Assembly (NCBI GenBank): GCA_001778095.1
Contig: MFGA01000020.1
Coordinates: 35,426-70,045 of the forward strand
Reading direction: 5' to 3'
Origin: Candidatus Falkowbacteria bacterium RIFOXYA2_FULL_38_12
GTDB taxonomy: Bacteria > Patescibacteriota > Patescibacteriia > XYB2-FULL-38-15
Length of the DNA: 34,620 nucleotides
The position numbers were made by a program, and so were the translations under genes. The notes under the pieces are model-generated. The model saw only the letters and a list, made by a program, of their open reading frames with translations. It was not told the origin of the DNA and did not search any database. The stretch's first letter is position 1, and every line of letters starts with the position of its first letter. Positions 167-30,244 of the stretch are shown here, one piece after another.

Positions 167-2677
167 ATGTCTAATTCCAAAGAAGCAAAAGCGCGAATAA
201 AAATAAACAAATTGCTTGAACAAGCGGGCTGGCGATTTTTTGATAATGAAAAAGGGCAAGCAACTATTTCGCTTGAGCCGAATGTAAAACTTACGCAAAA
301 AGACATTGACGCTTTTGGTGAGGATTTTGAATCTACAAAAAACGGATTTATTGATTTTTTATTGCTTGATGAAAAAGGTTTCCCTCTCGTTATTTTGGAA
401 GCCAAAAAAGAAGATAAAAATCCACTTGACGGAAAAGAACAAGCGAGAAAATATGCTCATACCGAAAATGCCCGTTTTGTAATTCTTTCAAACGGCAATC
501 TTCATTATTTTTGGGATTTGGAACGGGGCGATCCTGAAATTATCACGGAATTTCCAACGCAAGAATCTTTGAAACACAGGCAAGATTTCAAACCCGACAA
601 TCAGCGTTTAGCAGATGAAGAAGTCGAAGAAGACTATATTGCATTTACGCAAAATCCAAACTTCAAAGATGATCCTCGCTATCAAAAAGAAGAAACACGA
701 GAACAATATCTTTGGGACGAAAATTTGCGAATTTTGCGCCCCTATCAACTCAAGGCTGTGCATAGTTTGCAGAAATCCGCCGAAGCTGGAAATGATCGTT
801 TTCTTTTTGAAATGGCAACGGGAACAGGAAAAACGCTTATTTCCGCCGCAATCATTAAACTATTTTTAAGAACAGGAAACGCAAAAAGGATTTTGTTTTT
901 GGTCGATCGTTTGGAATTGGAAGATCAAGCGCACAAAAACTTTGTCCGCTATTTGAGCAACGATTTTTCCTCTGTTATTTACAAACAAAATCGTGATGAC
1001 TGGAAAAAAGCGGAAGTAGTCATTACAACCGTTCAAAGTCTTTCATCGCAAGACAAATACAAAAAACTATTTTCACCGACTGATTTTGATTTAGTTATTG
1101 CCGATGAATCACACCGAGCAATCGGCGGAAATTCCCGTGCAGTTTTTGAATATTTTATCGGCTATAAATTGGGCTTAACTGCAACACCGAAGGACTATTT
1201 GAAAAATGTTGATCCGCAAAAACTATCACAAAAAGATCCGCGAGCTTGGGAAAGACGGCAATTGCTTGATACATACACAACTTTTGGTTGTAAAAATGGC
1301 GAGCCGACTTTTCGTTTCAGTTTGCTGGACGGCGTAAAAGAAGGATTTTTAATCAATCCTATTGTTTCGGACGCGCGAACAGACATTACTACTGAATTAC
1401 TTTCAGAAAAAGGGTATGCGGTTATGGTTGAGGACGAAGAAGGCGGAGAAAGCGAAGAAACATTTTTCCAAAAAGATTTTGAAAAGAAATTCTTTTCCGA
1501 AAAAACAAATCGTGTCTTTTGCCAAACATTTATTGAGAATGCTTTCAAAGACCCGATAAGTGGTGAAATCGGCAAAAGCATTATATTTTGCGTAAGCCAA
1601 AAACATTGTTCAAAAATTACCCAAACCCTCAACCAAATGGCGAGCCAACTTTGGCCCGACAAATACAATTCTGATTTTGCCGTGCAAATAACTTCAAACA
1701 TTGCCGATAGCCAGCAATTCACGATCAATTTTGCAAATAACAATTTAAGCGGACATACAAAATTTCTAGAGAACTACAAATCAAGTAAAACGAGAATTTG
1801 CGTAACTGTCGGAATGATGACAACGGGCTATGACTGCCAAGATATTTTGAATCTTGCGCTTATGCGCCCCGTCTTTTCACCGACTGACTTTATCCAAATC
1901 AAAGGACGCGGAACAAGAAAATTCACTTTTGAATATTCCGATGAATACGATGAAAAGCACAAAGCGACGAAAGATCACTTCAAATTTTTCGATTTTTTCG
2001 CTAACTGCGAATACTTTGAAGAAAAATTTGATTATGATGAAGTTTTGCAATTGCCAATAAAACAAAAAGGAACAGGCGGAGAAGGACCGGTCGGCGTTGA
2101 CATTGACGAATTCGAAACTTTCAATCCTGACAAAGTAAAAACTCTCACCGAAACACCTGTTGGAATTGAGGGAATGAAAGTTGATCGCAAACTTTTTGAA
2201 AAAGCCCGCGAGGAATTACAAAATGATCCCGAAGTTAAAACTGCCGTTCTAAACGAGCAATGGGACAAGGCGGTGCAAATAATGCGGGATAAATACGAAG
2301 ATAAACCGCAATTATTCCTAAACCTTGAAAAAATCCGCAAGAGCGAAAATCTTGACCGCCGTATTTCTTGGCGTGAATTTTTGGAACGAGCTTTCGGCTT
2401 GATTGATGTTTTCAAAACCAAGGATGAGAAACTGGAAGAAGAATGCGAAAAGTTTATTTCAATCTACAAGCCCGAAAGCAAATATGTTCCGCATATCAAA
2501 AATTATCTAAAAGCGTATGTTTCCAGTGAGTATTTTAGAAATGAGATAAACAGCAAACGATTTCCGCGCACGTATGCCGGTTTTACTATGGCGGACTATA
2601 AAGAATTAAACGGTTTTCGCGAAACTATTCCGGAATATGTGAAAGATTATGTTTCGGTTAATGTTTATATGAGGTAA
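167..2677 (+). CDS. hsdR: Type I restriction enzyme, R (motor/nuclease) subunit HsdR
   Basis: The 836-aa product is the DNA-translocating, cleaving subunit of a type I restriction-modification complex. An N-terminal PD-(D/E)XK-type nuclease motif is visible: D63, then E78-A-K80 in VILEAKKE. The SF2 helicase motor follows: Walker A ATGTGKT at 217-223, Walker B DESH at 313-316, GLTATP at 336-341, TTGYDC near 552 and the arginine-finger motif QIKGRGTR at 577-584. The acidic C-terminal third fits the EcoEI-type HsdR C-terminal domain that docks on the methylase. Length is within the usual range for this subfamily. The ATG at 167 has no clear Shine-Dalgarno sequence. The gene is followed after 10 bp by the rhuM-like gene and then by the fused hsdM-hsdS gene, which supplies methylation and target recognition. 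Confidence 0.95.
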   Translation: MSNSKEAKARIKINKLLEQAGWRFFDNEKGQATISLEPNVKLTQKDIDAFGEDFESTKNGFIDFLLLDEKGFPLVILEAKKEDKNPLDGKEQARKYAHTENARFVILSNGNLHYFWDLERGDPEIITEFPTQESLKHRQDFKPDNQRLADEEVEEDYIAFTQNPNFKDDPRYQKEETREQYLWDENLRILRPYQLKAVHSLQKSAEAGNDRFLFEMATGTGKTLISAAIIKLFLRTGNAKRILFLVDRLELEDQAHKNFVRYLSNDFSSVIYKQNRDDWKKAEVVITTVQSLSSQDKYKKLFSPTDFDLVIADESHRAIGGNSRAVFEYFIGYKLGLTATPKDYLKNVDPQKLSQKDPRAWERRQLLDTYTTFGCKNGEPTFRFSLLDGVKEGFLINPIVSDARTDITTELLSEKGYAVMVEDEEGGESEETFFQKDFEKKFFSEKTNRVFCQTFIENAFKDPISGEIGKSIIFCVSQKHCSKITQTLNQMASQLWPDKYNSDFAVQITSNIADSQQFTINFANNNLSGHTKFLENYKSSKTRICVTVGMMTTGYDCQDILNLALMRPVFSPTDFIQIKGRGTRKFTFEYSDEYDEKHKATKDHFKFFDFFANCEYFEEKFDYDEVLQLPIKQKGTGGEGPVGVDIDEFETFNPDKVKTLTETPVGIEGMKVDRKLFEKAREELQNDPEVKTAVLNEQWDKAVQIMRDKYEDKPQLFLNLEKIRKSENLDRRISWREFLERAFGLIDVFKTKDEKLEEECEKFISIYKPESKYVPHIKNYLKAYVSSEYFRNEINSKRFPRTYAGFTMADYKELNGFRETIPEYVKDYVSVNVYMR

Positions 2678-2687
2678 CCAAAAGAAT

Positions 2688-3716
2688 ATGAAAAAAGACA
2701 ATAAAAAACTAACTATCCGCAATTCCACCGCAGAATTTCTTATTTTCACCTCTCAAGCAGGCGAAGAAGGCATTGAAGTTCGTGTAGAAGATGAAAATAT
2801 ATGGCTAACCCAAAAACTGATTGCTAAGCTTTTTGATGTAAATATTCCGAATATAAATGAGCACTTGAAGCATATTTTTGAAAATGGAGAATTGGATGAA
2901 AATTCAGTTATTCGGAATTTCCGAATAACTGCTGTTGATGGAAAACAGTATCAAGCGAAACATTATAACTTAGAGACAATTATCGCCATCGGTTTTCGTG
3001 TTAATTCAGAGAAAGCAACAAATTTTCGCGTATGGGCAAATAAAGTTTTGAAAGATTTTGCTATTCACGGATATGTGTTGGATGATGTCAGGCTTAAAAA
3101 TGGGGCATATTTGAGCAAGCAATATTTTAAAGATTTGATTCTTGAAATTCGCGATATTAGAGAGAGTGAGCGAAATTTTTATCAGCAAATTACCGATATT
3201 TACGCGACTGCGCTTGATTATAATCTTAATTCGCCTACTACGAAAGGTTTTTTTGCCAATGTTCAAAATAAGCTACATTTTGCTACGCACGGGCGCACAG
3301 CAGCGGAATTGATAACAGATCGCGCGAGTCATAAAAAATATTACATGGGGCTGACCTCTTGGAAAAAATCTCCGAATGGAAAAATTTTAAAATCCGATGT
3401 TGTGATTGCCAAAAATTATTTGAATGAAAAAGAAATAAAATTTTTAAACCGCATCGTAACTATGTATCTTGACTATGCGGAAAATCAGGCAGAAAAATGT
3501 ATCCCGATGACAATGGCGGATTGGTCGGGAAAACTAAATGCTTTTTTGAAATTCAATAATGAGAAAATTCTTGACAATGTCGGCAAAATAACGACAGAGA
3601 TGGCGAAAGCTTTTGCCGAAAGTGAGTTTGAAAAATATCGCCCGATTCAAGACAAGCTTTTTAAATCTGACTTTGATCGTGAAATAAAGAAGTTTTTAAA
3701 ATATCATAAAGAATAA
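2688..3716 (+). CDS. rhuM: RhuM-family protein
   Basis: The 342-aa protein matches the RhuM family as I know it. The N-terminal part (about 35-145) has the signature IWLTQKLIAKLFDV, a winged-helix-like region, followed by GELDENSV, dGKQYQAKHYNLETIIAIG, FRVNSEKATNFRVWA and GYVLDD. The C-terminal part (about 190-342) is helical, with HGRTAAELI. RhuM was named from a Salmonella pathogenicity island, but its biochemical role is not established, and the virulence label should not be carried over here. Homologues often sit inside type I restriction loci, as here between hsdR (10-bp gap) and hsdM::hsdS (2-bp gap). The spacing implies one transcript, so a role linked to the restriction complex is a fair inference. 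Confidence 0.85.
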   Translation: MKKDNKKLTIRNSTAEFLIFTSQAGEEGIEVRVEDENIWLTQKLIAKLFDVNIPNINEHLKHIFENGELDENSVIRNFRITAVDGKQYQAKHYNLETIIAIGFRVNSEKATNFRVWANKVLKDFAIHGYVLDDVRLKNGAYLSKQYFKDLILEIRDIRESERNFYQQITDIYATALDYNLNSPTTKGFFANVQNKLHFATHGRTAAELITDRASHKKYYMGLTSWKKSPNGKILKSDVVIAKNYLNEKEIKFLNRIVTMYLDYAENQAEKCIPMTMADWSGKLNAFLKFNNEKILDNVGKITTEMAKAFAESEFEKYRPIQDKLFKSDFDREIKKFLKYHKE

Positions 3717-3718
3717 TT

Positions 3719-6175
3719 GTGCTTGATCAAACTACAAAACGAAAACTTGACTCTGCTCGCAATATTCTTGTTGGAAATGTTACTAATCCAATTTCACAGG
3801 TAGATCAAATAACCAACGCCTTGATTTATAAGTTTATGGATGATATGGATCAGGAAAATTTAGAAGTTGATTTAAAGCCTCAATTTTTTGTTGATGAATA
3901 TAAACAATATTCATGGCGTAAATTAATGGATAAAAAATTATCCGGGCAAGAGAGATTCAATCTTTATGAAGAAGCTACAAAAAAATTAACTTATGCCAAA
4001 CATATCCCATCACTTTTTAGAACAATTTTTGAAAATGCTCGCTTGCCGTATAATGATCCACGCGTCTTAACTCTCTTTTTAAAAGAGATAGACGAATTTT
4101 CTTATAGTCATAGCGAGGAGCTTGGCAATGCTTTTGAATACTTACTCTCCATTCTCGGTTCGCAAGGAGATGCGGGAATGTTTAGAACGCCACGGCACAT
4201 TATTGATTTTATAGTTGATATCGTTGATCCGAAGAAAAACGAAACAATTCTTGACCCTGCTTGCGGAACGGCTGGATTTTTGATTTCTGCTTATAAACAT
4301 ATTGTTAAAAATAATGATGGCAAGGATAATGAAACTGGCAAACCTACTAAAAAAGAAACACTGCTTACGCCCGATGAAAAATTACACCTGATGAATAATC
4401 TTGCGGGCTATGACATTTCGCCAGATATGGTGAAGTTGTCTTTGGTAAATATGTATTTACACGGTTTTCAAAATCCGCAAATTCATAAATACGATACGCT
4501 TTCAAGCGAGAAGCGTTGGGATGAAACCTTTGATGTGATTCTCGCTAATCCGCCGTTTATGTCGCCGAAAGGCGGGATTGTTCCTCACAAAAGATTTTCT
4601 ATCCAAGCTAATCGCGCGGAAGTTTTATTCGTTGATTATATTGTTGAGCACTTAACGATCAAAGGGCGGGCTGGAATCATCGTGCCAGAGGGTGTAATTT
4701 TTAAATCTGATGGAGCATGCAAAGCGCTTCGTAAAAAATTAGTAGAAGACGGACTTTTTACAGTAGTAAGTTTGCCAGCCGGAATTTTTCAGCCATACAG
4801 CGGAGTAAAAACCAGTATTTTGTTTTTTGATAATCAACTGGCAAAGAGATCTCAAGATATTTTATTTATAAAAATTGAAAATGACGGCTTTGATCTCGGT
4901 GCGCAAAGGCGGCCGATTGAGAAAAATGATTTGCCGAAAGCTATAGACCGCATAAGAATATGGAAAAATGTTTTGAATGATATTGATAAAAAGGAAAAAT
5001 TAAAAATTGTTGGCAAACAGGAATCAGTTAATGCTATTTGGGTTGATAAAGAAAAAATATCTGAAAGTGGAGATTATAATTTAACTGGCGAGCGATATCA
5101 GGAAGTTGAGGTTTATAAAAAACAGAAGTGGGAAATGGTGGAGTTGGGGGAAGTTTTAGAATATGAACAGCCAACAAAATATATTGTTAAATCAGTTAAT
5201 TATGATGATAGTTATAAAACCCCTGTTTTAACCGCAGGTAAGACTTTTATATTAGGATATACAAACGAAGAGGACGGTATATTTTCCGCAAAGAATTTAC
5301 CAGTAATTATTTTTGATGATTTTACAACGGCCATCAAATTTGTTGATTTTCCATTTAAAGTAAAATCATCGGCGATGAAAATTTTACGTGCAGATAAAAC
5401 AAAAGCAGATGCGCGATTTTTGTTTCAAATAATGAAGACAATAAAATTTAGACACGATGACCATAAACGGTATTGGATATCAGAATTTTCAAAAATCAAA
5501 ATCCCACTTCCACCCCTTGAAGTTCAAAAAGAAATTGTTGAGCAAATTGAGGTCAAACAAAGTGCCATAGATCACGCCAAGGCGATCATCCAAAATCTAG
5601 AGAGAGAGAGACGCTATTTTGGTCAATCACTTAGAAAATTAGAAGGCGTTAAAATAGTGGAGTTGGGAGAAGTTGCTGAAGTCATTGCTGGACAGTCGCC
5701 AGAAGGAAAATATTACAACGAAACAGGCGAAGGAATGCCATTTTATCAAGGTAAAACAGAATTTTCAGAATTGTATATTGGGAAACCAAAAGTATGGACA
5801 ACAAAAATAACAAAAATTGCAGAGAGAGACGATATTTTAATGTCTGTCCGTGCGCCTGTTGGTCCAGTTAATATTGCAACAGAAAAAGTTTGTATTGGTC
5901 GAGGTCTTGCTTCAATACGGGCAAATAAAGTAGATCCGATGTTCTTATTTAACTTTCTAAAATCAATTGATAATAAAATTAAAGGCAATGGCGGTGCGGT
6001 GTTTGATTCAATAAATAAAAAGCAGATTGAAGAATTAAAAATCCCGCTTCCGTCTTTGGAAATTCAGAAAAAACTTGTCGCCGAGGCAGAAAAAGAACAG
6101 CAAATAATCAACGCAAACAAGCAATTGATTGAAATCTACGAGCAAAAAATTTCTGATGTTTTAAGTGAGATATAG
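3719..6175 (+). CDS. hsdM-hsdS: Fused type I methylase-specificity protein (HsdM::HsdS)
   Basis: The 818-aa product joins two subunits that are normally separate. Residues 1 to about 460 form an HsdM N6-adenine methylase: a helical N-terminal bundle, the AdoMet motif LDPACGTAGFL at 178-188 and catalytic NPPF at 277-280. From about 470 an HsdS-like half follows with two target-recognition domains. TRD1 starts at WEMVELGEV (about 470) and ends at IPLPPLEVQKEIVEQI, before a helical spacer with NLERERRYF. TRD2 starts at VELGEVAEVIAGQSP (about 645) and ends at IPLPSLEIQKKLV. The first codon is GTG at 3719, 2 bp after the rhuM stop. The reading frame is continuous, with no frameshift at the junction. 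As two TRDs are present, one chain could specify a bipartite site, and the usual M2S1 stoichiometry would have to change. Confidence 0.93.
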   Translation: MLDQTTKRKLDSARNILVGNVTNPISQVDQITNALIYKFMDDMDQENLEVDLKPQFFVDEYKQYSWRKLMDKKLSGQERFNLYEEATKKLTYAKHIPSLFRTIFENARLPYNDPRVLTLFLKEIDEFSYSHSEELGNAFEYLLSILGSQGDAGMFRTPRHIIDFIVDIVDPKKNETILDPACGTAGFLISAYKHIVKNNDGKDNETGKPTKKETLLTPDEKLHLMNNLAGYDISPDMVKLSLVNMYLHGFQNPQIHKYDTLSSEKRWDETFDVILANPPFMSPKGGIVPHKRFSIQANRAEVLFVDYIVEHLTIKGRAGIIVPEGVIFKSDGACKALRKKLVEDGLFTVVSLPAGIFQPYSGVKTSILFFDNQLAKRSQDILFIKIENDGFDLGAQRRPIEKNDLPKAIDRIRIWKNVLNDIDKKEKLKIVGKQESVNAIWVDKEKISESGDYNLTGERYQEVEVYKKQKWEMVELGEVLEYEQPTKYIVKSVNYDDSYKTPVLTAGKTFILGYTNEEDGIFSAKNLPVIIFDDFTTAIKFVDFPFKVKSSAMKILRADKTKADARFLFQIMKTIKFRHDDHKRYWISEFSKIKIPLPPLEVQKEIVEQIEVKQSAIDHAKAIIQNLERERRYFGQSLRKLEGVKIVELGEVAEVIAGQSPEGKYYNETGEGMPFYQGKTEFSELYIGKPKVWTTKITKIAERDDILMSVRAPVGPVNIATEKVCIGRGLASIRANKVDPMFLFNFLKSIDNKIKGNGGAVFDSINKKQIEELKIPLPSLEIQKKLVAEAEKEQQIINANKQLIEIYEQKISDVLSEI

Positions 6176-6235
6176 CCCAAAAAAGTCTAAAATACGCTAT
6201 TTTTGTCATTTATCCACAAAATTTAGTATAAACAC

Positions 6236-6264
6236 TTGCAATATTATTAAATATCTGTTAAAAT
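6236..6264 (+). promoter_or_regulatory. Sigma70-type promoter for the AbiL-like pair
   Basis: TTGCAA at 6236-6241 and TAAAAT at 6259-6264 are separated by exactly 17 bp. They lie in the only sizeable gap (128 bp) of the defence island. A Shine-Dalgarno-like AAAGG lies at 6288-6292, 11 nt before the ATG at 6304. The pair therefore probably has its own transcription unit, separate from the restriction genes. Confidence 0.65.
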
Positions 6265-6303
6265 AGCAGTAGTCGAATAATTATTTTAAAGGTTTATAAA
6301 AAT

Positions 6304-7512
6304 ATGATTCACTCATTTACCTGCAAAAATTTTTACTCCTTTGGCGAAGAAACCACGCTCAATTTTGGGGTAAACAATAATGCGCCTGAAAATAACGGTT
6401 ATTTTACTGCCGTCTCGGGTAATCGTCTTTCAAAAGTGGAAACAGTCATCGGTCAGAATGCTTCGGGTAAAACAAATCTGCTCAAAATTTTGCCTTTTTT
6501 GAAATGGCTAATTATTGATTCATTTAATGCAAAGCCAGAAGATCCGATTGTTGTCCAGTCGTTTGCCTTTGGCGAAGCAAAAAGTGAACCGACAAATTTA
6601 TCGGTGGTTTTTGAAATTGACGGAAAAGTTTATGCCTATGATTTTATTATTACTAAAGAAAAGATTCTCAATGAAGAATTGAAATTGACCAGTTTTGCGA
6701 AAGAAAAAAAATCAACCAAAAAAATTTTTTCTCGCGTATGGAATGAAAAAGAAAATCGTTATGACTTTGATGGAGAAAATTTTGAATTGTCTAAAGGATT
6801 TGAAAATCTTTTACGCACTAATGCAAGCGTAATTGGTACCGCCGCCCGCCTTAATCATGCTGAAAGTCGGGTTATTGCAAAATACTGGGGGCAAATTGAA
6901 ACCAATGTTGTTGAAGCTGGCTGGGTTGGAGATCATTTGTTGCCAAACTCAATCGCTCAATTAGGCGAAGCATTTGATTTTTTTAGTGAAAACAGTGCTC
7001 TTAAGGCGGAAGCTGAAAAATTATTGTGTCGTTTCGATCTGGGTTTAAGTGGATTTGAGATAAAAAAAGAAAAAAAAGAAAATGGTTTTTTTCTGAATGT
7101 GCGAGCAGCGCACTTGTTTAATGGACAGAAACAATATTTGCCTGTGCAATATGAGTCTTCTGGCACAAAGCAATTGTTTGTGCTTCTAAAAAGCATTCTT
7201 GTTGCGCTTGAAAAAGGAGGTATTGCGGTCGTTGATGAATTTGATGTCAATCTTCACCCTGAAATGGTGATTGCTTTGTATAATTTATTTGTTCAGCCCG
7301 AGACAAATCCCAAAAATGCTCAATTGTTTATGAGTACTCATAGTCATATTTTGCTCAGCAAGCTTGATAAATATCAAATTGTTTTGGTTGAAAAAAATGA
7401 AAATGGCGTAAGTGAGGCATGGCGATTGGATGAAATGTCTGATGTGCGCTCTGATGAAAATTATTATTCAAAATATCTCGCCGGTGCGTATGGAGCCGTT
7501 CCTAAAATTTAA
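6304..7512 (+). CDS. AAA/ABC-type ATPase of an AbiL (RloA/AbiLi-like) defence pair
   Basis: The 402-aa protein is a single-chain SMC/OLD-like ATPase. It opens with the typical FTCKNFYSFGE strand. Walker A is GQNASGKT at 50-57, and Walker B is VVDEFD with D311 and E312, followed by LHPEM (D-loop region). An ABC-like signature lies before it (YESSGTKQLF), and the H-loop STHSHILLS follows. This arrangement is shared by RloA, AbiLi and the AriA subunit of PARIS. The downstream RloB/AbiLii-like gene 11 bp away supports a two-gene AbiL-type abortive-infection module: the ATPase would sense infection and release or activate the partner. That mechanism is inferred from related systems. Confidence 0.85.
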   Translation: MIHSFTCKNFYSFGEETTLNFGVNNNAPENNGYFTAVSGNRLSKVETVIGQNASGKTNLLKILPFLKWLIIDSFNAKPEDPIVVQSFAFGEAKSEPTNLSVVFEIDGKVYAYDFIITKEKILNEELKLTSFAKEKKSTKKIFSRVWNEKENRYDFDGENFELSKGFENLLRTNASVIGTAARLNHAESRVIAKYWGQIETNVVEAGWVGDHLLPNSIAQLGEAFDFFSENSALKAEAEKLLCRFDLGLSGFEIKKEKKENGFFLNVRAAHLFNGQKQYLPVQYESSGTKQLFVLLKSILVALEKGGIAVVDEFDVNLHPEMVIALYNLFVQPETNPKNAQLFMSTHSHILLSKLDKYQIVLVEKNENGVSEAWRLDEMSDVRSDENYYSKYLAGAYGAVPKI

Positions 7513-7523
7513 TTGTCAAAAAT

Positions 7524-8063
7524 ATGTCAAGAACGAATCCATATAAGAAAAAACGTCGAAGTGCCAAGCGAACGCTATTGATGTATGGCGAAGGATTGGG
7601 CGAAGAAATGTTTCTAAGACACTTGCGATCGCTTTATGCTCATAATAGTGGCGTATCTGTAACAATCAGAAATGGAAAAGGGGGGAATCCTAAAAGTGTT
7701 GTTATAAACGCCGCAAACGAACCAGGTGATTTCGAAAAGCGGATTGTAATTTTAGATAATGATAAAGATAAAAAAGAAATGGATCAGGCTCGAGTTGAGG
7801 CTAAAAAGAAAAGCGTGGCGATACTTGAAAATTCGCCTTGTTTGGAATCAACATTGCTTTCCATTCTTCGTACTGAACAAAATTTTTCTACTAAAAAATC
7901 AGCATGGTGCAAAAATGAATTCGAATTAAATTATATGGACAAAAAGAAACGAATAGAATTAGAAGAATACAAGAAAGTTTTTTCAAAACAAATTTTAGAT
8001 GGTCAGAAAGATAAAATTTTAGAATTGAAAGCACTTATAAATTTAATGGAAGGAAAATTATAG
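7524..8063 (+). CDS. RloB/AbiLii-like protein, probable effector of the defence pair
   Basis: The 179-aa protein carries the three blocks I associate with the RloB/AbiLii family: an acidic motif MYGEGLGEE (20-28, usual form EGxTE), ILDNDKD (77-82) and NSPCLESTLL (103-112, usual form SNPCFExWLL). The arrangement of acidic residues resembles a Toprim-like nuclease core, as in AriB of PARIS. A basic N-terminus (KKKRRSAKR) could contact nucleic acid. It follows the ATPase gene by 11 bp. The family is known from plasmid abortive infection (AbiL) and from genes linked to Campylobacter type I restriction loci (rlo). The phenylalanine and tryptophan usual in the third block are replaced, so this is a divergent member. 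Confidence 0.72.
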   Translation: MSRTNPYKKKRRSAKRTLLMYGEGLGEEMFLRHLRSLYAHNSGVSVTIRNGKGGNPKSVVINAANEPGDFEKRIVILDNDKDKKEMDQARVEAKKKSVAILENSPCLESTLLSILRTEQNFSTKKSAWCKNEFELNYMDKKKRIELEEYKKVFSKQILDGQKDKILELKALINLMEGKL

Positions 8064-23498: not shown

Positions 23499-25835
23499 AT
23501 GGAAAAAATTAATTTTTTTCTTCAGAGCAATTGGAAAATTTTAGGCCTATGTATTTTATCGGCCAGCTGTTTTAGTTTAGCTTTTTTACCGGAGGATCCG
23601 GCGCTAAAGAGTATTGCCGGGACTGAACTAACTTGTTCGCTTCCGTCCGGCGAGGCGGGCGCGATGGCTCTCGCCAATACTACTTTTTTAAAATCATATC
23701 GCCTTTTGGTTTTCACAAAAATCAACAGTGTTTGGCCAACGAAGGATGGCGGTTATATCGTTTCCGGCACAACCGATCCGAACATAATGTTTATTCCGCC
23801 GGATGGTTTTGTGGCTAAGCTTGATAAAAAGGGTGATATTCAGTGGTTAAAGTTATTAAAAACCACGAACGCCGGTGGCGCGGGGAATCCTTTGGGCGAT
23901 GAAGATGTCCAATCAATCATTGAACTGAAAAATGGCGGATATCTGATGGCCTCAAAGGTTTGGGGTTTTATTACGGCCAAAGAATGGAGTTCGGATAGTG
24001 CGGAGCTGAACAAGATAATGTTTACCAAACTGGACAAAAACGGCAATACGATTTGGAGCAAGTCCATCACTGCGTTTGTGGAAGACGCGAAAAATTCTTT
24101 GTTGGAAACCGCTGATAGCGGTTTTTTATTTTATACCAACATTGTTGATCTTGCTCCCGACAAAAGAGGGGAGGACAGCGATGTTTATCAGGATCAACCC
24201 TATGCCTCGCTTAAAGTTTTTAAATTTGATAAGAACGGCGTTATCCAATGGTCAAAAAATATAAAAAATTTCATATCTCGCAAAAATGATTCTTATTTGG
24301 TTTCAACGCCAGATGGAGGCTATGCTTTGGCGGGTAATATAACCCAGACGAATTCGGAGAAAATTCCTCCTTACAATTACGATACTTATCCGGGGTTTGC
24401 CAAATTTAACAAAAATTTTGATTTTGAATGGGCAAGAAGCCTTGAGGGAATCCCACTTGAAATGGCAACGGTTATCTTTAAGCCAAATGGAGTTCCGGAG
24501 ATGGGCTGGAAAGAAGTGCGCCAAGGAGCCAGTATTATTCATGGTCTTATTCAAACGCAAGATAAAGGCTATCTTGTGTTGGGAATTGGGCCTGCGGCAT
24601 TGTCTTTAGTGACAGACAGTCAGGGTTTAAATTCAAACTCAAAACCCAAAGGTTCTTTTGTCGGGTTTAAATTTGATTCTTTGGGGAATATGGAATGGGT
24701 TAAAAAAATGACCTTGAGTTTTAATGATTTTACCTCACCGGTAACGGATTTTTCTTTGTCCCCAACGGCTGACAACAAAATGATAATTACCGGCCCGATC
24801 TTGTGGGCGGATAATGACTATCAGGAAAAAATTAAAAAGGCTAACGCCGACCGTGATTTATATTGTGAAAAATATCAAATCAGTGAAGAGTGGTGCAAGG
24901 CTAATATAATAACCAATATTGAGGATAGCGAACAAACCAAACAAGACTGGGAAAAAGTTCATGAGGCCTACGTAATCGTTCAGGACTCTTTTCGTCCGGG
25001 TATTTTTGTAATGAAAACAGATCAGGAATTAAATGCCAGTTGGGCAAAGATAATCAATCCGCATCGTGGCGCCATTAACTATTCCTTGAAGCCAACCTCG
25101 GATAGCGGGGTCATTATTGCCGGTGAATATGAAACTACAGTGGTTCAATCAGTTATTCTCGATAGTGTTACTTATTATAAAGATGGTTTTTTAATAAAAA
25201 TGGATGCCAGTGGCAATGTTAAAAATGATGCCGATTGGATTCAAAATTATGATGGTGAGATTGTCACGGAGATGATGACCCCCTATGCCACTTCAATGAC
25301 CTTGAGCGGCGTTAAAGAACTGTATTCGGTTAAATTAACAAATCGCGCGCCAACATTTTCTCTTTACAAAAAGGCAAAAACCACCGCTTATTCCACCTTT
25401 AATAGCTCTCTTGAGACTCTCTGTCCTTTTGCTCCGGCAGTTTCCGCGCACGATGCTCCGCTTCAAAATTCAACCCTCGCTTCAACTGCCAGAAGGACTT
25501 GGCCGCAAATTTATTATGAAAGAGCCGTCCCGGTTGAGCCAATTACCGACAAGAGCTTGATTATTCACAATGATCTTCTGCCGATTTTAAATCAAATCTT
25601 TGATAATAGAATCAAGCTGACGGACAATATGAGCGGAACAATGCTCAGCTATATGTTTAGCAGTATTATTACCAAAGATGACGTTATAGAGGTGAAAAAT
25701 TATCTTGAGGGTCTTGGCTATAAAACTTATGACGAAGGGACGAGCCAGCTAACGATGTATAAACCGGGTTATTTTTTAGTCCTGACTTTTTCTACGAACA
25801 ATAAAGATAAGGCATTTTTAGATGTGACGTATTAA
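23499..25835 (+). CDS. Large exported protein with a predicted seven-bladed beta-propeller and a C-terminal alpha/beta domain
   Basis: The 778-aa protein starts with a signal-like helix (about 12-30, with a Cys at 24 that might be a non-canonical lipobox, SASC). From about 74 to 600 there are seven units of one pattern: a strand with DGGY-x-(V/L), a variable loop, then KLDKxGxxxWxK. Clear examples are KDGGYIVSG...KLDKKGDIQWLK, FKFDKNGVIQWSK, PDGGYALAG and DKGYLVLG...FKFDSLGNMEW. Seven units suggest a closed propeller. Unit 6 is enlarged by an insertion with two Cys. A linker follows, then a domain (about 685-778) that seems to recur in the genes at 25893 and 27466. Function unknown; surface binding is likely. 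Confidence 0.75.
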   Translation: MEKINFFLQSNWKILGLCILSASCFSLAFLPEDPALKSIAGTELTCSLPSGEAGAMALANTTFLKSYRLLVFTKINSVWPTKDGGYIVSGTTDPNIMFIPPDGFVAKLDKKGDIQWLKLLKTTNAGGAGNPLGDEDVQSIIELKNGGYLMASKVWGFITAKEWSSDSAELNKIMFTKLDKNGNTIWSKSITAFVEDAKNSLLETADSGFLFYTNIVDLAPDKRGEDSDVYQDQPYASLKVFKFDKNGVIQWSKNIKNFISRKNDSYLVSTPDGGYALAGNITQTNSEKIPPYNYDTYPGFAKFNKNFDFEWARSLEGIPLEMATVIFKPNGVPEMGWKEVRQGASIIHGLIQTQDKGYLVLGIGPAALSLVTDSQGLNSNSKPKGSFVGFKFDSLGNMEWVKKMTLSFNDFTSPVTDFSLSPTADNKMIITGPILWADNDYQEKIKKANADRDLYCEKYQISEEWCKANIITNIEDSEQTKQDWEKVHEAYVIVQDSFRPGIFVMKTDQELNASWAKIINPHRGAINYSLKPTSDSGVIIAGEYETTVVQSVILDSVTYYKDGFLIKMDASGNVKNDADWIQNYDGEIVTEMMTPYATSMTLSGVKELYSVKLTNRAPTFSLYKKAKTTAYSTFNSSLETLCPFAPAVSAHDAPLQNSTLASTARRTWPQIYYERAVPVEPITDKSLIIHNDLLPILNQIFDNRIKLTDNMSGTMLSYMFSSIITKDDVIEVKNYLEGLGYKTYDEGTSQLTMYKPGYFLVLTFSTNNKDKAFLDVTY

Positions 25836-25892
25836 TTTATTTTATTTTTTAATTAAAATCCGAGATAAGTTTTTTCGGAATAACAAAAAATT

Positions 25893-26396
25893 ATGTCTAA
25901 AAAATTTTTCAGCGCCATATTTGTTTTAGTTGGCGTTTTGATGTTTGCGGGCGCCGGTTGTGGTAGTAAAAGCCTTGTTGATGGGGAGCAAACGAATAAT
26001 GATCCGTCGGTTGTAAACCAAGATCAAGGTATACCAGACACTATTGCGACAGAGTCCCCGGACAAATTTTATAATTCAGTCGAAGAAATAGCGACGCCGG
26101 CCGGCTTGCCAAGCGAATTAAAATCTATTTTAAACGAAGCTTGCGGTGAAGTTAAATTAACGGATATAGCTGGGGGTTTTTCAGATTCGGGAAATAATTT
26201 GTTGTTTTATACTTGGAAAAATAAACCAACAGCAGGGAAATTGATAAGTCTTTTTGAGGAGAATGGGTACAAGGTAGAAACAGTATTGGGCGAGACACTC
26301 CTTGCCAAGAAGGGGAATCTTTCAGTTGGCGTTCAGTGGATCGCATCAAATCTGGAGGCAGAACAGCAAATTCTTGTTGAATTAACAAGGGAATAA
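25893..26396 (+). CDS. Lipoprotein of unknown function in the exported cluster
   Basis: The 167-aa product has a signal peptide ending FAGAGC, with C23 the likely lipidated residue. A polar, low-complexity linker (about 27-70) follows. The C-terminal domain (about 75-167) has LKSILNEACGEVKLTD, a strand with LLFYTWK, a helix with KLISLFEENGYKVE, and strands with ETLLAKKG and LSVGVQW. Its order of elements matches the C-terminal domains of the 778-aa and 211-aa neighbours. It lies 57 bp after the propeller gene and 26 bp before the cysteine-rich gene. Confidence 0.72.
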   Translation: MSKKFFSAIFVLVGVLMFAGAGCGSKSLVDGEQTNNDPSVVNQDQGIPDTIATESPDKFYNSVEEIATPAGLPSELKSILNEACGEVKLTDIAGGFSDSGNNLLFYTWKNKPTAGKLISLFEENGYKVETVLGETLLAKKGNLSVGVQWIASNLEAEQQILVELTRE

Positions 26397-26422
26397 AAAC
26401 GAAAAATATAAATTAGATTTTT

Positions 26423-27349
26423 ATGAAAATCAAACTTTTAATTTTGGCGGCACTAATAGTATTTCTAGCCACGGGTACGGTTTTTGCCCAACTTGACACC
26501 GACGGAACGGGATTTGACCCAACGCAATTTGACATCACGAAGGACAAAACTAAAAATTTTATGACCGCTCCTACCGGGAAAATGACAGATGAGATTGATA
26601 TGGAAATGGTGGCGCGTATTTCAGTCTGTCATAAAGGGACATCTATATCAGAAAAAGAATTCAATGTTTTAAAAGTGCCTTACGACATAACCTCCCTTGA
26701 ATTTGTGGCATATTATATACAGCGTTTGCAAGGTGGCGAAGGAGCAAGCCAATTTTTGGAAAAGTGGGCGTCAAGGATGCCCGGGTTAGTGGCAGCCGTA
26801 AAAGCTAAGGGTTGTAAATTTGGAGTCGAGCCGGAGCCGTCTGCTCTAGAAAAATGTAACGGTTATTGCTCAATGAGCAATGTTTGCTCGGCTGGAGCAA
26901 TAAATAAAGGTTTAACTGATTGTCAGTCTCAGAAGAAATGCCATTCGTGCGGTTTTTTAGGCTTAAAAAAATGTTGCGAATATCTGCCCACTACTTGTTG
27001 CGAATATCCAAAGCCAGTGACTGATTGTAGCACGGGGATGTGCACTTACAATGATTGTCCAGAGGGGACGCAAGAAGTTGGTCCTGCCAATTGCGGAGAA
27101 GCAGAGGATTGCGAGACCTGTTGGGGACTGTTTAAATGTTGCAAGCAAAAACAGACAAAGTGTTGTATGGCAATAGATAATACCGAATGCGCGCGGGGAA
27201 CTTGTCAGAACGGCAATACTTGTCCCAAGGGATTTAAAAATGCTGGAATGGCCGATTGCGGTTCTTATGAGGAGGTTCATAGCTGTGGTTTTTGGGGAAT
27301 TGCCGAATGTAAAGATCCAGCCCCCAGAACTTGTTGTCAGCCGGAATAG
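26423..27349 (+). CDS. Secreted cysteine-rich repeat protein
   Basis: The 308-aa protein has a clean signal peptide, likely cut after VFA (residue 22). A domain of about 120 residues with two Cys (ISVCHKG and GCKFG) comes first. Three tandem modules of about 53 residues follow (about 143-199, 200-252, 253-308). The first two have ten cysteines each in the order C-x3-C-x(4-5)-C-x(9-10)-C-x5-C-x2-C-x6-CC-x6-CC; the third keeps eight. Such dense, regular cysteines imply disulfides in an oxidising exterior. I recognise no known knot, EGF or TIL pattern. The position among other exported proteins suggests a shared surface structure. Confidence 0.72.
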   Translation: MKIKLLILAALIVFLATGTVFAQLDTDGTGFDPTQFDITKDKTKNFMTAPTGKMTDEIDMEMVARISVCHKGTSISEKEFNVLKVPYDITSLEFVAYYIQRLQGGEGASQFLEKWASRMPGLVAAVKAKGCKFGVEPEPSALEKCNGYCSMSNVCSAGAINKGLTDCQSQKKCHSCGFLGLKKCCEYLPTTCCEYPKPVTDCSTGMCTYNDCPEGTQEVGPANCGEAEDCETCWGLFKCCKQKQTKCCMAIDNTECARGTCQNGNTCPKGFKNAGMADCGSYEEVHSCGFWGIAECKDPAPRTCCQPE

Positions 27350-27465
27350 AATAGATCTCTTCGCAACTCTACCGTGGGGTCCAAAATTCTTTATTTATAA
27401 CAGAGTAATTGAAGCTCAAAGGTCAAAAATAACAAATTTAATTTATTTTAACAGATAAAACGCAT

Positions 27466-28101
27466 ATGGATAAAAAAACAAAAACAATTATTGTCGTAGT
27501 GTTGGTGGTTGGTGTCATCGGCGGTTTATATTATGGCGTCAATCGTTGGCGCGAACAACGGCTCGCCAATCAAATTTTAAAAGAAGCTTATGGTCTTAAT
27601 ACGGGTGTGCTGGGAGGGTTGCTTGGTGGCAGTGTCCAAGAGAAAATAGCCAAAGAAATGGCCAAGGAAGCCGCCAAAAACGAATTGCAACAAGCGGAGG
27701 ACGAAGCTAAGGAAGCTGCTAAGACGCCAGAAGACAGATACGATGAAACCGAGGAAATGGCGACTTACGATGATAATTCTAAATTCGCGGCGGACGAAGC
27801 GAGAAAAATTATAGAAAAGGTATTCGGTAAAACCAAACTGGTTTCTGTCTATAGTAACGCGTATGGTTCTGAGAATTCAGTTTCCAGTATGATGGAATTC
27901 AAGATCTCTCGCCTGGCAACAGGAGCGGATTTAAGTGCGCTCAATAAAGCGCTTACCGATAAAGGTTTGCCGATTATACAAAGTGGCATAGCAGACAAAA
28001 CTGCCACGGTAATGTCCGGCAATGATAATAATGTTTACTCTTTTGGTTTTGAGATTGGCGAACAAACAGTAAATGCCAATATTATGGTAATCAGTGAATA
28101 A
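27466..28101 (+). CDS. Membrane-anchored protein of the exported cluster
   Basis: The 211-aa product has one N-terminal membrane helix (about 6-26) and a glycine-rich turn (GVLGGLLGGS). A charged, Ala/Glu/Lys-rich coiled-coil-like stretch (about 58-95) follows. The C-terminal domain (about 105-211) has ARKIIEKVFGKTKLV, MMEFKIS, ALNKALTDKGLPI, TATVMSG and YSFGFEIG. The layout of helix, strands, helix, strands parallels the C-terminal domains of the two exported neighbours. It starts 116 bp after the cysteine-rich gene. No function can be assigned. Confidence 0.65.
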   Translation: MDKKTKTIIVVVLVVGVIGGLYYGVNRWREQRLANQILKEAYGLNTGVLGGLLGGSVQEKIAKEMAKEAAKNELQQAEDEAKEAAKTPEDRYDETEEMATYDDNSKFAADEARKIIEKVFGKTKLVSVYSNAYGSENSVSSMMEFKISRLATGADLSALNKALTDKGLPIIQSGIADKTATVMSGNDNNVYSFGFEIGEQTVNANIMVISE

Positions 28102-28125: not shown

Positions 28126-28455
28126 ATGGCGCAAAATACAGTAGGCGGAGGAGGCAAAAATACCACAATGGCAATTATTGCCTATCTTCTTTTCTTTGTT
28201 CCCCTTTTAACCGGCGACGCGAAGAAAGATTCATTCGTAAAATATCATACTAAGCAGGGTTTAGTTTTGTTTTTGTTAGCGGTATTGATAACTGTGGTAG
28301 GGTGGTTTATCCCATTTTATTTTTGGTGGACGATTCGCTGGATTTTAAATTTGGGAATACTGGTATTGTTAATTATTGGCATTAGTAATGCGGTCGGCGG
28401 AAAAGAAGCGCCATTACCTCTTATCGGCAAGTTTTCGGATGTTTTCAAGTTCTAA
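28126..28455 (+). CDS. DUF4870/Tic20-like membrane protein, copy 1
   Basis: The 109-aa protein has three membrane segments. It carries the pattern AYLLFFVPLL, then FVKYHTKQGL, IPFYFW and a C-terminal APLPLIGK. These match the DUF4870/Tic20-like family, whose bacterial members are uncharacterised. A paralogue lies at 29900-30244. The gene is 24 bp after the 211-aa gene and closes that run. Confidence 0.85.
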   Translation: MAQNTVGGGGKNTTMAIIAYLLFFVPLLTGDAKKDSFVKYHTKQGLVLFLLAVLITVVGWFIPFYFWWTIRWILNLGILVLLIIGISNAVGGKEAPLPLIGKFSDVFKF

Positions 28456-28571: not shown

Positions 28572-28733
28572 TAGACACACTGCATAATAATCCTTTCTAC
28601 TGCAACTAGTAATTTTGGCTGCAAATTTACAAAAGCTCCTCCTCTTATATTGCATATAAACATCGTCGCTTTTCTAAATTTTCGCCTAAAATTACTTCGT
28701 TTCGTAACGAAAGATTATTATGCAGTGGGTCTA
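28572..28733 (-). mobile_element. MITE-like element, copy 1 (162 bp)
   Basis: The ends are inverted repeats. The left end TAGACACACTGCATAATA and the right end read on the other strand, TAGACCCACTGCATAATA, differ at one of 18 positions; similarity continues to about 26 bp. Both ends begin with TA. Read on the minus strand, the element matches copy 2 (32952-33112) at both ends and in the flanking CTTTCGTT(A/G)CGAAA and TTG(C/T)AG(C/T)AGAAAG stretches. No ORF belongs to it. It ends 6 bp before the start of the phosphatidyltransferase gene. Confidence 0.8.
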
Positions 28734-28739
28734 AAGAAG

Positions 28740-29276
28740 ATGTCTAGCCAACTAAATATTCCAAACATTTTAAGTATTTTTAGAATCATTTTGACTTTTG
28801 TCTTTGGTATTTTATTAATTTATAATTATAGGTTTTTAGCGCTGGGGATTTTTTTATTAGCCGGGATCACTGATATTTTGGACGGATATTTGGCAAGAAA
28901 AAACGGACAAGTGACAGTCTTGGGAAGAATTTTGGATCCGGCCGCGGACAGGCTTTTGATGATTTTGGCTTTTCTAATTTTATTTTTAAAATACAGCTTA
29001 CCTTTTTGGCTCCTTGCTCTTGCTTTTGCCTATCACATCATAATCGCTCTTGGTTGGCTTTATATTTTTAAGTATAAAAAAATTACGCTGCCTCATATTT
29101 TTTGGGGAAAACTAAACGCGGTTATTGAAAGTATCATGATTTGCGTCGTTATTTTGAATTTTTATCCATCAATATTTTTTATTATAACCGCCGGATCGCT
29201 TACTTTTTCTTTTTCATTTTATTTTTATAAATTTATTAAAGTTATTCTGAAAAGAGAAGCGGGGGCGCCAATATGA
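28740..29276 (+). CDS. CDP-alcohol phosphatidyltransferase (PgsA-like)
   Basis: The ATG at 28740 gives 178 residues starting MSSQLNIPNILSIFRI. A longer frame from 28650 runs through the MITE-like element and is rejected. The family motif D-x2-D-G-x2-A-R-x8-G-x3-D-x3-D is complete: D45, D48-G49, A52-R53, G62, D66, D70. About five to six membrane helices follow. The enzyme joins a CDP-lipid to an alcohol, most likely glycerol 3-phosphate (phosphatidylglycerophosphate synthase). Its stop overlaps the ATG of the CarS-like gene by 4 bp, so CDP-lipid formation and use are coupled genetically. Confidence 0.9.
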   Translation: MSSQLNIPNILSIFRIILTFVFGILLIYNYRFLALGIFLLAGITDILDGYLARKNGQVTVLGRILDPAADRLLMILAFLILFLKYSLPFWLLALAFAYHIIIALGWLYIFKYKKITLPHIFWGKLNAVIESIMICVVILNFYPSIFFIITAGSLTFSFSFYFYKFIKVILKREAGAPI

Positions 29277-29818
29277 TTTTAATAAAATGCCTTTATTTTA
29301 TGTTGCCGGCGTATCTCGCCAATATGGCCCCTATTTTTGCCCAGAAATCGGGTATTTTAAAATTTTTAGACAAGCCTATTGACGGAGGAAGAAAAGTAAA
29401 AGGGGAACCTGTTTTTGGAGAAAATAAGACTTGGCGGGGATTTGTAGTAGGAATTATTGCCGCTATTTTTATGATTTGGGTCCAATATTTTTTGTACAAA
29501 ATTCCTTTTTTTCAAAACTGGAGCTTAATGAATTACTCGGAAATAAATTTATGGCTTGGCGGATTTTTATTCGGTTTTGGCGCTCTTTTCGGCGATCTCG
29601 TAAAAAGTTTTTTTAAAAGAAGATTTAGGATTCATTCCGGAACGCCGTGGATTCCCTTTGATCAAATGGATTTTATTTTAGGATCCCTAATATTTATTTT
29701 ACCAGTTTATTTCCCATCCCTCCTTGAAACGGTTATTATTCTTGCCGCCAGCCCGTTTCTTCATATTTTAGCCAATAATTTGGGTTTTTATCTACAATTA
29801 AAAAAGACAAAATGGTAA
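29273..29818 (+). CDS. CarS-like CDP-lipid synthase (CDP-archaeol synthase family)
   Basis: The 181-aa membrane protein has the family signature PAYLANMAPIFAQKS, then KPIDGGRK, GENKTWRGFVVG, FFKRRFRIHSGTPW and PFDQMDFILGS. The archaeal enzyme loads CTP onto an unsaturated archaetidic acid; bacterial relatives are thought to use phosphatidic acid in place of CdsA. The 4-bp overlap with the phosphatidyltransferase gene supports a role in supplying its CDP-lipid. The bacterial substrate is inferred. Confidence 0.88.
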   Translation: MILIKCLYFMLPAYLANMAPIFAQKSGILKFLDKPIDGGRKVKGEPVFGENKTWRGFVVGIIAAIFMIWVQYFLYKIPFFQNWSLMNYSEINLWLGGFLFGFGALFGDLVKSFFKRRFRIHSGTPWIPFDQMDFILGSLIFILPVYFPSLLETVIILAASPFLHILANNLGFYLQLKKTKW

Positions 29819-29899: not shown

Positions 29900-30244
29900 A
29901 TGGACGAAGCAATTAACCAAAACGAACCGCAGAAAAAAGATCAGAAGTCTCAAAATACCTTAATGGCTCTTTTAGCCTATATTGTATTTTTTATCCCGCT
30001 TCTTACTGACGCGAAAAACGACGAATTCGTAAAATATCATGTTAAGCAAGGACTGGGCCTCTTTATTTTATCTATTGTCGTAGGGATAATAAATTCAACG
30101 ATTCCTTTTTATTTTTGGTTTATCGGCACAATTCTATGGCTAGGCGTCTTGGTGTTTTTCGTTATTGGGATCATGAACGCTCTTGGCGAAAAAAAGGAAC
30201 CATTGCCTTTAATTGGTAAAATGGCCGAAAAAATAAATATATAG
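29900..30244 (+). CDS. DUF4870/Tic20-like membrane protein, copy 2
   Basis: The 114-aa protein is a clear paralogue of the 28126 product. It shares AYIVFFIPLLT, FVKYHVKQGLGLF, IPFYFW and EPLPLIGK, with three membrane segments. The hydrophilic N-terminus is longer (NQNEPQKKDQKSQN). It is the first gene behind the promoter at 29830 and lies 3 bp before rsmI. Function unknown. Confidence 0.85.
   Translation: MDEAINQNEPQKKDQKSQNTLMALLAYIVFFIPLLTDAKNDEFVKYHVKQGLGLFILSIVVGIINSTIPFYFWFIGTILWLGVLVFFVIGIMNALGEKKEPLPLIGKMAEKINI

Follow-up and report, generated by a model that had tools for sequence, protein, structure and literature searches.

This work finds that three of the four exported proteins encoded by a gene cluster in a 0.91-Mb Candidatus Falkowbacteria genome share one C-terminal domain, here termed CT, to a degree beyond chance, and that the first and third genes of the cluster, A and C, are linked across genomes in which A is patchily distributed. 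The window, by which we mean the whole stretch of 34,620 nucleotides analysed, belongs to contig C20 of this genome (G000) and holds the four genes consecutively on its plus strand: A (23499–25835; 778 aa), B (25893–26396; 167 aa), C (26423–27349; 308 aa) and D (27466–28101; 211 aa), separated by gaps of 57, 26 and 116 bp. Directly after D, on the same strand, stands a gene for a DUF4870/Tic20-like small membrane protein (28126–28455). As the preliminary description had stated, all four proteins bear export signals, judged by eye: a hydrophobic signal or membrane-anchor helix in A (residues ~12–28), a hydrophobic N-terminus with a lipobox-like AGAGC site in B, a hydrophobic signal peptide in C, and in D a single N-terminal transmembrane helix preceded by few residues. 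Behind these signals follow a predicted seven-repeat SBBP-type beta-propeller and CT in A, CT in B, a helical domain (here termed TDE) and three Cys-rich repeats of about 55 residues in C, which contains 30 cysteines, and a charged helix and CT in D. None of the four was named above cut-off by Pfam, NCBIfam, PHROGs or PADLOC, the sole informative family match being that of A to an SBBP propeller lipoprotein model, and a literature search found no paper on this four-gene set. A promoter and terminator scan for operon boundaries gave counts near those of shuffled sequences and was uninformative.

Elsewhere in the window, positions 167–8063 form a defence island comprising hsdR of a type I restriction system, a RhuM-family gene (PDC-S05), a type I methylase-specificity fusion that joins N6_Mtase and Methylase_S in a single 818-aa ORF, and AbiLi/AbiLii-like genes. 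At 28650–29818 a CDP-alcohol phosphatidyltransferase gene adjoins one for a CDP-archaeol-synthase-like protein (PRK04032, just below cut-off), an unusual lipid pair.

The CT domain occupies residues 667–778 of A (25497–25832), residues 54–167 of B (26052–26393) and positions 27724–28098 in D, all on the plus strand. A profile built from 21 A C-termini matches the window D with an E-value of 7.7e-7 (406 ORFs searched) and the two nearest relatives of D at about 1e-6; conversely, a profile of ten D-type C-termini, containing neither A nor B rows, matches nearly all A proteins and also B (E 0.0012; 489 ORFs), and hhalign aligns the two profiles at 96% with an E-value of 1.2e-9. B scores 25.4 bits (E 3.6e-6) against a combined 37-row CT profile from which B was left out, while the best of 2000 shuffled B copies reached 8.1 bits and none was better than E 0.9. 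The relationship among the three C-termini, proposed earlier by eye, is thus borne out by the profile comparisons, and the interpretation built on it is partly supported: the domains are related, but a recent duplication inside the cluster is unlikely, because A-CT, B and D of the window are only about 16–20% identical to one another and, for A and D, closer relatives exist outside this genome. CT is carried by propellers, lipoproteins, transmembrane proteins and a short, nearly stand-alone protein (L128), and B-like lipoproteins bearing it occur in G280 (L043, with an A-like CT) and G376 (L085, with a D-like CT). For this domain, Pfam, NCBIfam and PHROGs gave no matching model and the PDB no sequence relative.

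The predicted structures agree with this relationship. In the AlphaFold2 model of A, computed with 21 A rows, CT consists, after a short helix, of helix 684–700, strands 705–709 and 715–720, helix 726–738 and strands 742–746, 750–755, 758–764 and 773–777; in that of D, computed with ten D rows, it consists of helix 103–120, strands 123–134 and 138–147, helix 154–165 and strands 170–176, 179–185, 189–196 and 201–208, mostly at pLDDT >90. The order of helices and strands is therefore identical between A 684–777 and D 103–208 in two models whose alignments have no row in common. In a Foldseek search of the PDB, the D model matched LppA first (2v7s; probability 0.99, E 0.026, TMt 0.42), followed by the PknH sensor domain and TiME and, lower down, by PsbP, Mog1 and PA0094. 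LppA, the PknH sensor domain, TiME, PsbP, Mog1 and PA0094 all belong to one broad alpha/beta fold group. With weak E-values and TM-scores, these matches weakly suggest that CT may resemble LppA/PknH and PsbP-type domains, a likeness to be taken as a lead only, and no sequence-profile match linked CT to the Mog1, PsbP or LppA families in Pfam or the PDB. In a viral structure library only small uncharacterised proteins were matched, which was uninformative. Signalling by D in the manner of PknH is unlikely, since only few residues stand before its transmembrane helix.

For A, the prediction of a seven-bladed SBBP-type propeller that ends in CT is well supported. The propeller region (residues 63–622; 23685–25364, plus strand) contains seven repeats of the form DGGYxxxG...FxxKxDxxGxxxW, and the AlphaFold2 model (mean pLDDT 73) places propeller-typical strands throughout it, with a helical insert at residues ~441–497 in blade 6. 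Foldseek ranked the CylK propeller first (7fh8, 7ron; E 7e-14), followed by sialidase, GH43 and other propellers, so that modelled strands, structural matches and repeats all point to an SBBP-like repeat propeller. The NCBIfam model of SBBP lipoproteins, NF047494, matches 13 of the 21 A proteins, and the window A with 25 bits (E 7e-6) against a curated cut-off of 400 bits. By eye, lipobox-like LLAGC or LASC sites occur in some A relatives (L026, L125) and are unclear in the window A. The family comprises 22 further proteins, and is present in 20–23 of the 381 sampled genomes of the class (about 5%) and in two genomes outside it. In G263 (L030, 2044–6632), a murF-like gene is followed by a tandem of two A-type genes that belong to two deep clades. 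A phage or plasmid origin was rejected, as there was no phage match and the plasmid matches were to generic propeller repeats, none full-length; a defence role was rejected likewise, PADLOC finding none among A–D.

The Cys-rich protein C is no bystander in the cluster, for its N-terminal domain turned up exclusively beside A or a CT-lipoprotein. This TDE domain (residues 47–131; 26561–26815, plus strand) was delineated by iterated profile search; four other genomes have it too, in proteins encoded next to A or to a CT-lipoprotein. In G137 (L029), a C homologue that is 71% identical and keeps the cysteines stands next to A. A TDE profile made from C and this homologue finds proteins in L024 (E 5e-9) and L031 (E 3e-6) directly and, on iteration, adds L043 and a second L031 gene; every match adjoins A or a CT-lipoprotein, the latter, lacking a propeller, in G280. 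A search of 38 genomes, 19 with A and 19 without, gave matches in four, each adjacent to A, and the A genes concerned all come from the clade of the window A, one of the two A clades. The arrangement of A, or its lipoprotein form, beside a protein with the small helical domain of C thus recurs in five genomes, including G112, G298 and G280. C and the other TDE proteins matched no known family above the Pfam cut-off. The lipoprotein that takes the place of B in G137 (L029, 8619–9011) keeps the signal and linker of B in front of another, Cys-containing mature part, whose Cys-helical module shows a weak likeness to part of the TDE protein that adjoins A in G298 (L031, 8229–9062; phmmer E 0.02).

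The A genes appear to have moved between remote lineages more than once, together with this partner. Between G000 and G137, identity is 71% for C and 60% for A, compared with 44% for MetG and 58% for RpoD. The window A is 66.6% identical to that of G402, which belongs to another class, 69.7% to that of G112 and 66% to those of G228 and G197, whereas the corresponding values are 42, 59, 47 and 46% for MetG and 57, 63, 62 and 68% for RpoD. Since A matches or exceeds the identity of RpoD across classes, transfer is indicated, and misbinning of G402 is unlikely, because a single 722-kb contig carries both its A and its RpoD. Horizontal movement of A between classes is thus well supported by these identities, as a probable event.

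The order A-B-C-D, for which the preliminary description had suggested a neighbourhood search, was found in the window genome only among the sampled species, many of them represented by draft contigs, and the neighbourhoods of relatives rule out a conserved four-gene operon. Some of the genes are nevertheless kept together in related genomes: in G137, A is followed by the lipoprotein matching only the first ~44 residues of B and then by C, and the gene behind A in G327 and G366 is a D about 50% identical to that of the window. One envelope complex of all four proteins, as proposed earlier, is not supported as such. A and D co-occur in five of the nine D genomes, where about 0.5 would be expected (Fisher p 2.6e-5; 381 genomes, uncorrected for relatedness), D is frequently present in genomes that lack A (G002, G039, G322, G376), and many A genes are alone, with no adjoining TDE, B or D (L025, L026, L035). 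D pairs with the DUF4870-like gene downstream, its steadiest neighbour and one outside the cluster as first described, in four loci (the window, L079, L083 and L084); the product of 28126–28455 scores 20.6 bits against PF09685 (E 5e-4), below the gathering score of 25. A second DUF4870/Tic20-like gene, 56% identical to it, lies 1.4 kb downstream at 29900–30244. A conserved membrane protein of about 168 aa (MAKPT...), to which Pfam gave no significant match, is encoded repeatedly in the vicinity of A, D or a CT-lipoprotein (L037, 6546–7049; L040, 5645–6148; L043, 2821–3318; L079, 5799–6302).

Based on these findings, we tentatively propose, as a whole with slightly less than even confidence, an anchored propeller, a CT/TDE partnership and a partly mobile cassette. 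A would be exported and, probably held by a membrane anchor, would present a binding surface on the cell envelope through its seven-bladed propeller; its C-terminal end is the CT module, and the propeller may bind an outside ligand or a partner cell. B and D would carry CT on a lipid anchor and a transmembrane helix, respectively; the TDE of C-type proteins would regularly accompany the CT-bearing proteins in the genome and probably also contact them physically, with A possibly binding C through CT and TDE. The cluster could then be a cassette in which A and C moved together, while B, the Cys repeats and D were exchanged around them. A with its C-type TDE protein is the best-supported unit, and the CT-bearing B and D are related proteins that sometimes join it. 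Speaking against the proposal are the many solitary A genes, the frequent presence of D in the absence of A, and the restriction of TDE, in genomes with A, to one of the two A clades.

A different explanation, which we consider unlikely although it is the strongest of the competitors, is that four independent exported proteins adjoin by chance and CT is a general Patescibacterial envelope module with unrelated roles and no complex. The uniqueness of the four-gene order, the stand-alone CT proteins across many contexts and the attachment of D to the DUF4870-like gene rather than to A all agree with it, but an A–C linkage that is kept across families and apparently co-transferred speaks against it, as does the co-occurrence of A and D. 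CT proteins might also assist cell-wall synthesis or division, as accessory factors beside the peptidoglycan machinery, an idea to which we assign a low probability: A-type genes directly follow ftsI-like or murF-like genes in L030, L037 and L040, D in L079 and L081 comes after a murF-like gene, and the lipoprotein form of L085 is surrounded by murE/murG-like genes (assigned by Pfam in L040, elsewhere by homology clustering or by eye), whereas neither the window cluster nor the bulk of the mobile A clade stands at such a place, and the ftsI/murF location may merely mark insertion sites. Least probable, in our estimate, is that A serves at the surface as an adhesin for, or in the recognition of, a host or partner bacterium, having been gained by horizontal transfer as other surface genes of epibionts have, with B, C and D stabilising it; its predicted export, propeller fold and patchy, horizontal distribution would fit such a role, but A matches no known adhesin domain, and neither phage copies nor full-length plasmid copies were found.

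The anchored propeller with its CT/TDE partnership could, more broadly, represent a modular and undescribed envelope system of Patescibacteria, in which CT, itself new and borne by propellers, lipid anchors or transmembrane helices, pairs with the new helical TDE, both being swapped together with variable Cys-rich or binding modules and passed horizontally from class to class; this generalization is possible but doubtful at present. The construction and use of the cell surface in Patescibacteria are poorly known, and a domain absent from the searched family libraries here links propeller, lipoprotein and membrane-anchored proteins. Between lineages, A shows higher identity than MetG and, for several pairs, also than RpoD, a sign of exchange of surface-factor genes. 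A-CT, B, D and C-TDE are defined constructs for binding and localisation tests.

As for known systems, the gene at 28126–28455, which stands behind D in four loci, encodes a small membrane protein of the DUF4870 (PF09685)/Tic20-like kind. CT is alpha/beta like the Mog1/PsbP-like folds (LppA, 2v7s; the PknH extracellular domain, 4esq; PsbP; PA0094), and the domain of LppA and PknH sits on exported or anchored proteins as CT does, but no comparison with these folds reached an E-value <0.001 and identities were 6–12%. The seven-bladed propeller of CylK is the closest structural match to A, yet at 13% identity and a TM-score of about 0.46 the likeness is one of overall fold only, and nothing points to the Friedel-Crafts enzyme activity of CylK. 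The SBBP propeller lipoproteins (NF047494, the LipL53 family; Pfam SBBP/DUF5122-type repeats) resemble A in being exported and in their SBBP-like repeats, whereas A differs from the NF047494 proteins in its added CT domain and in that a transmembrane-like anchor often replaces a clear lipobox.
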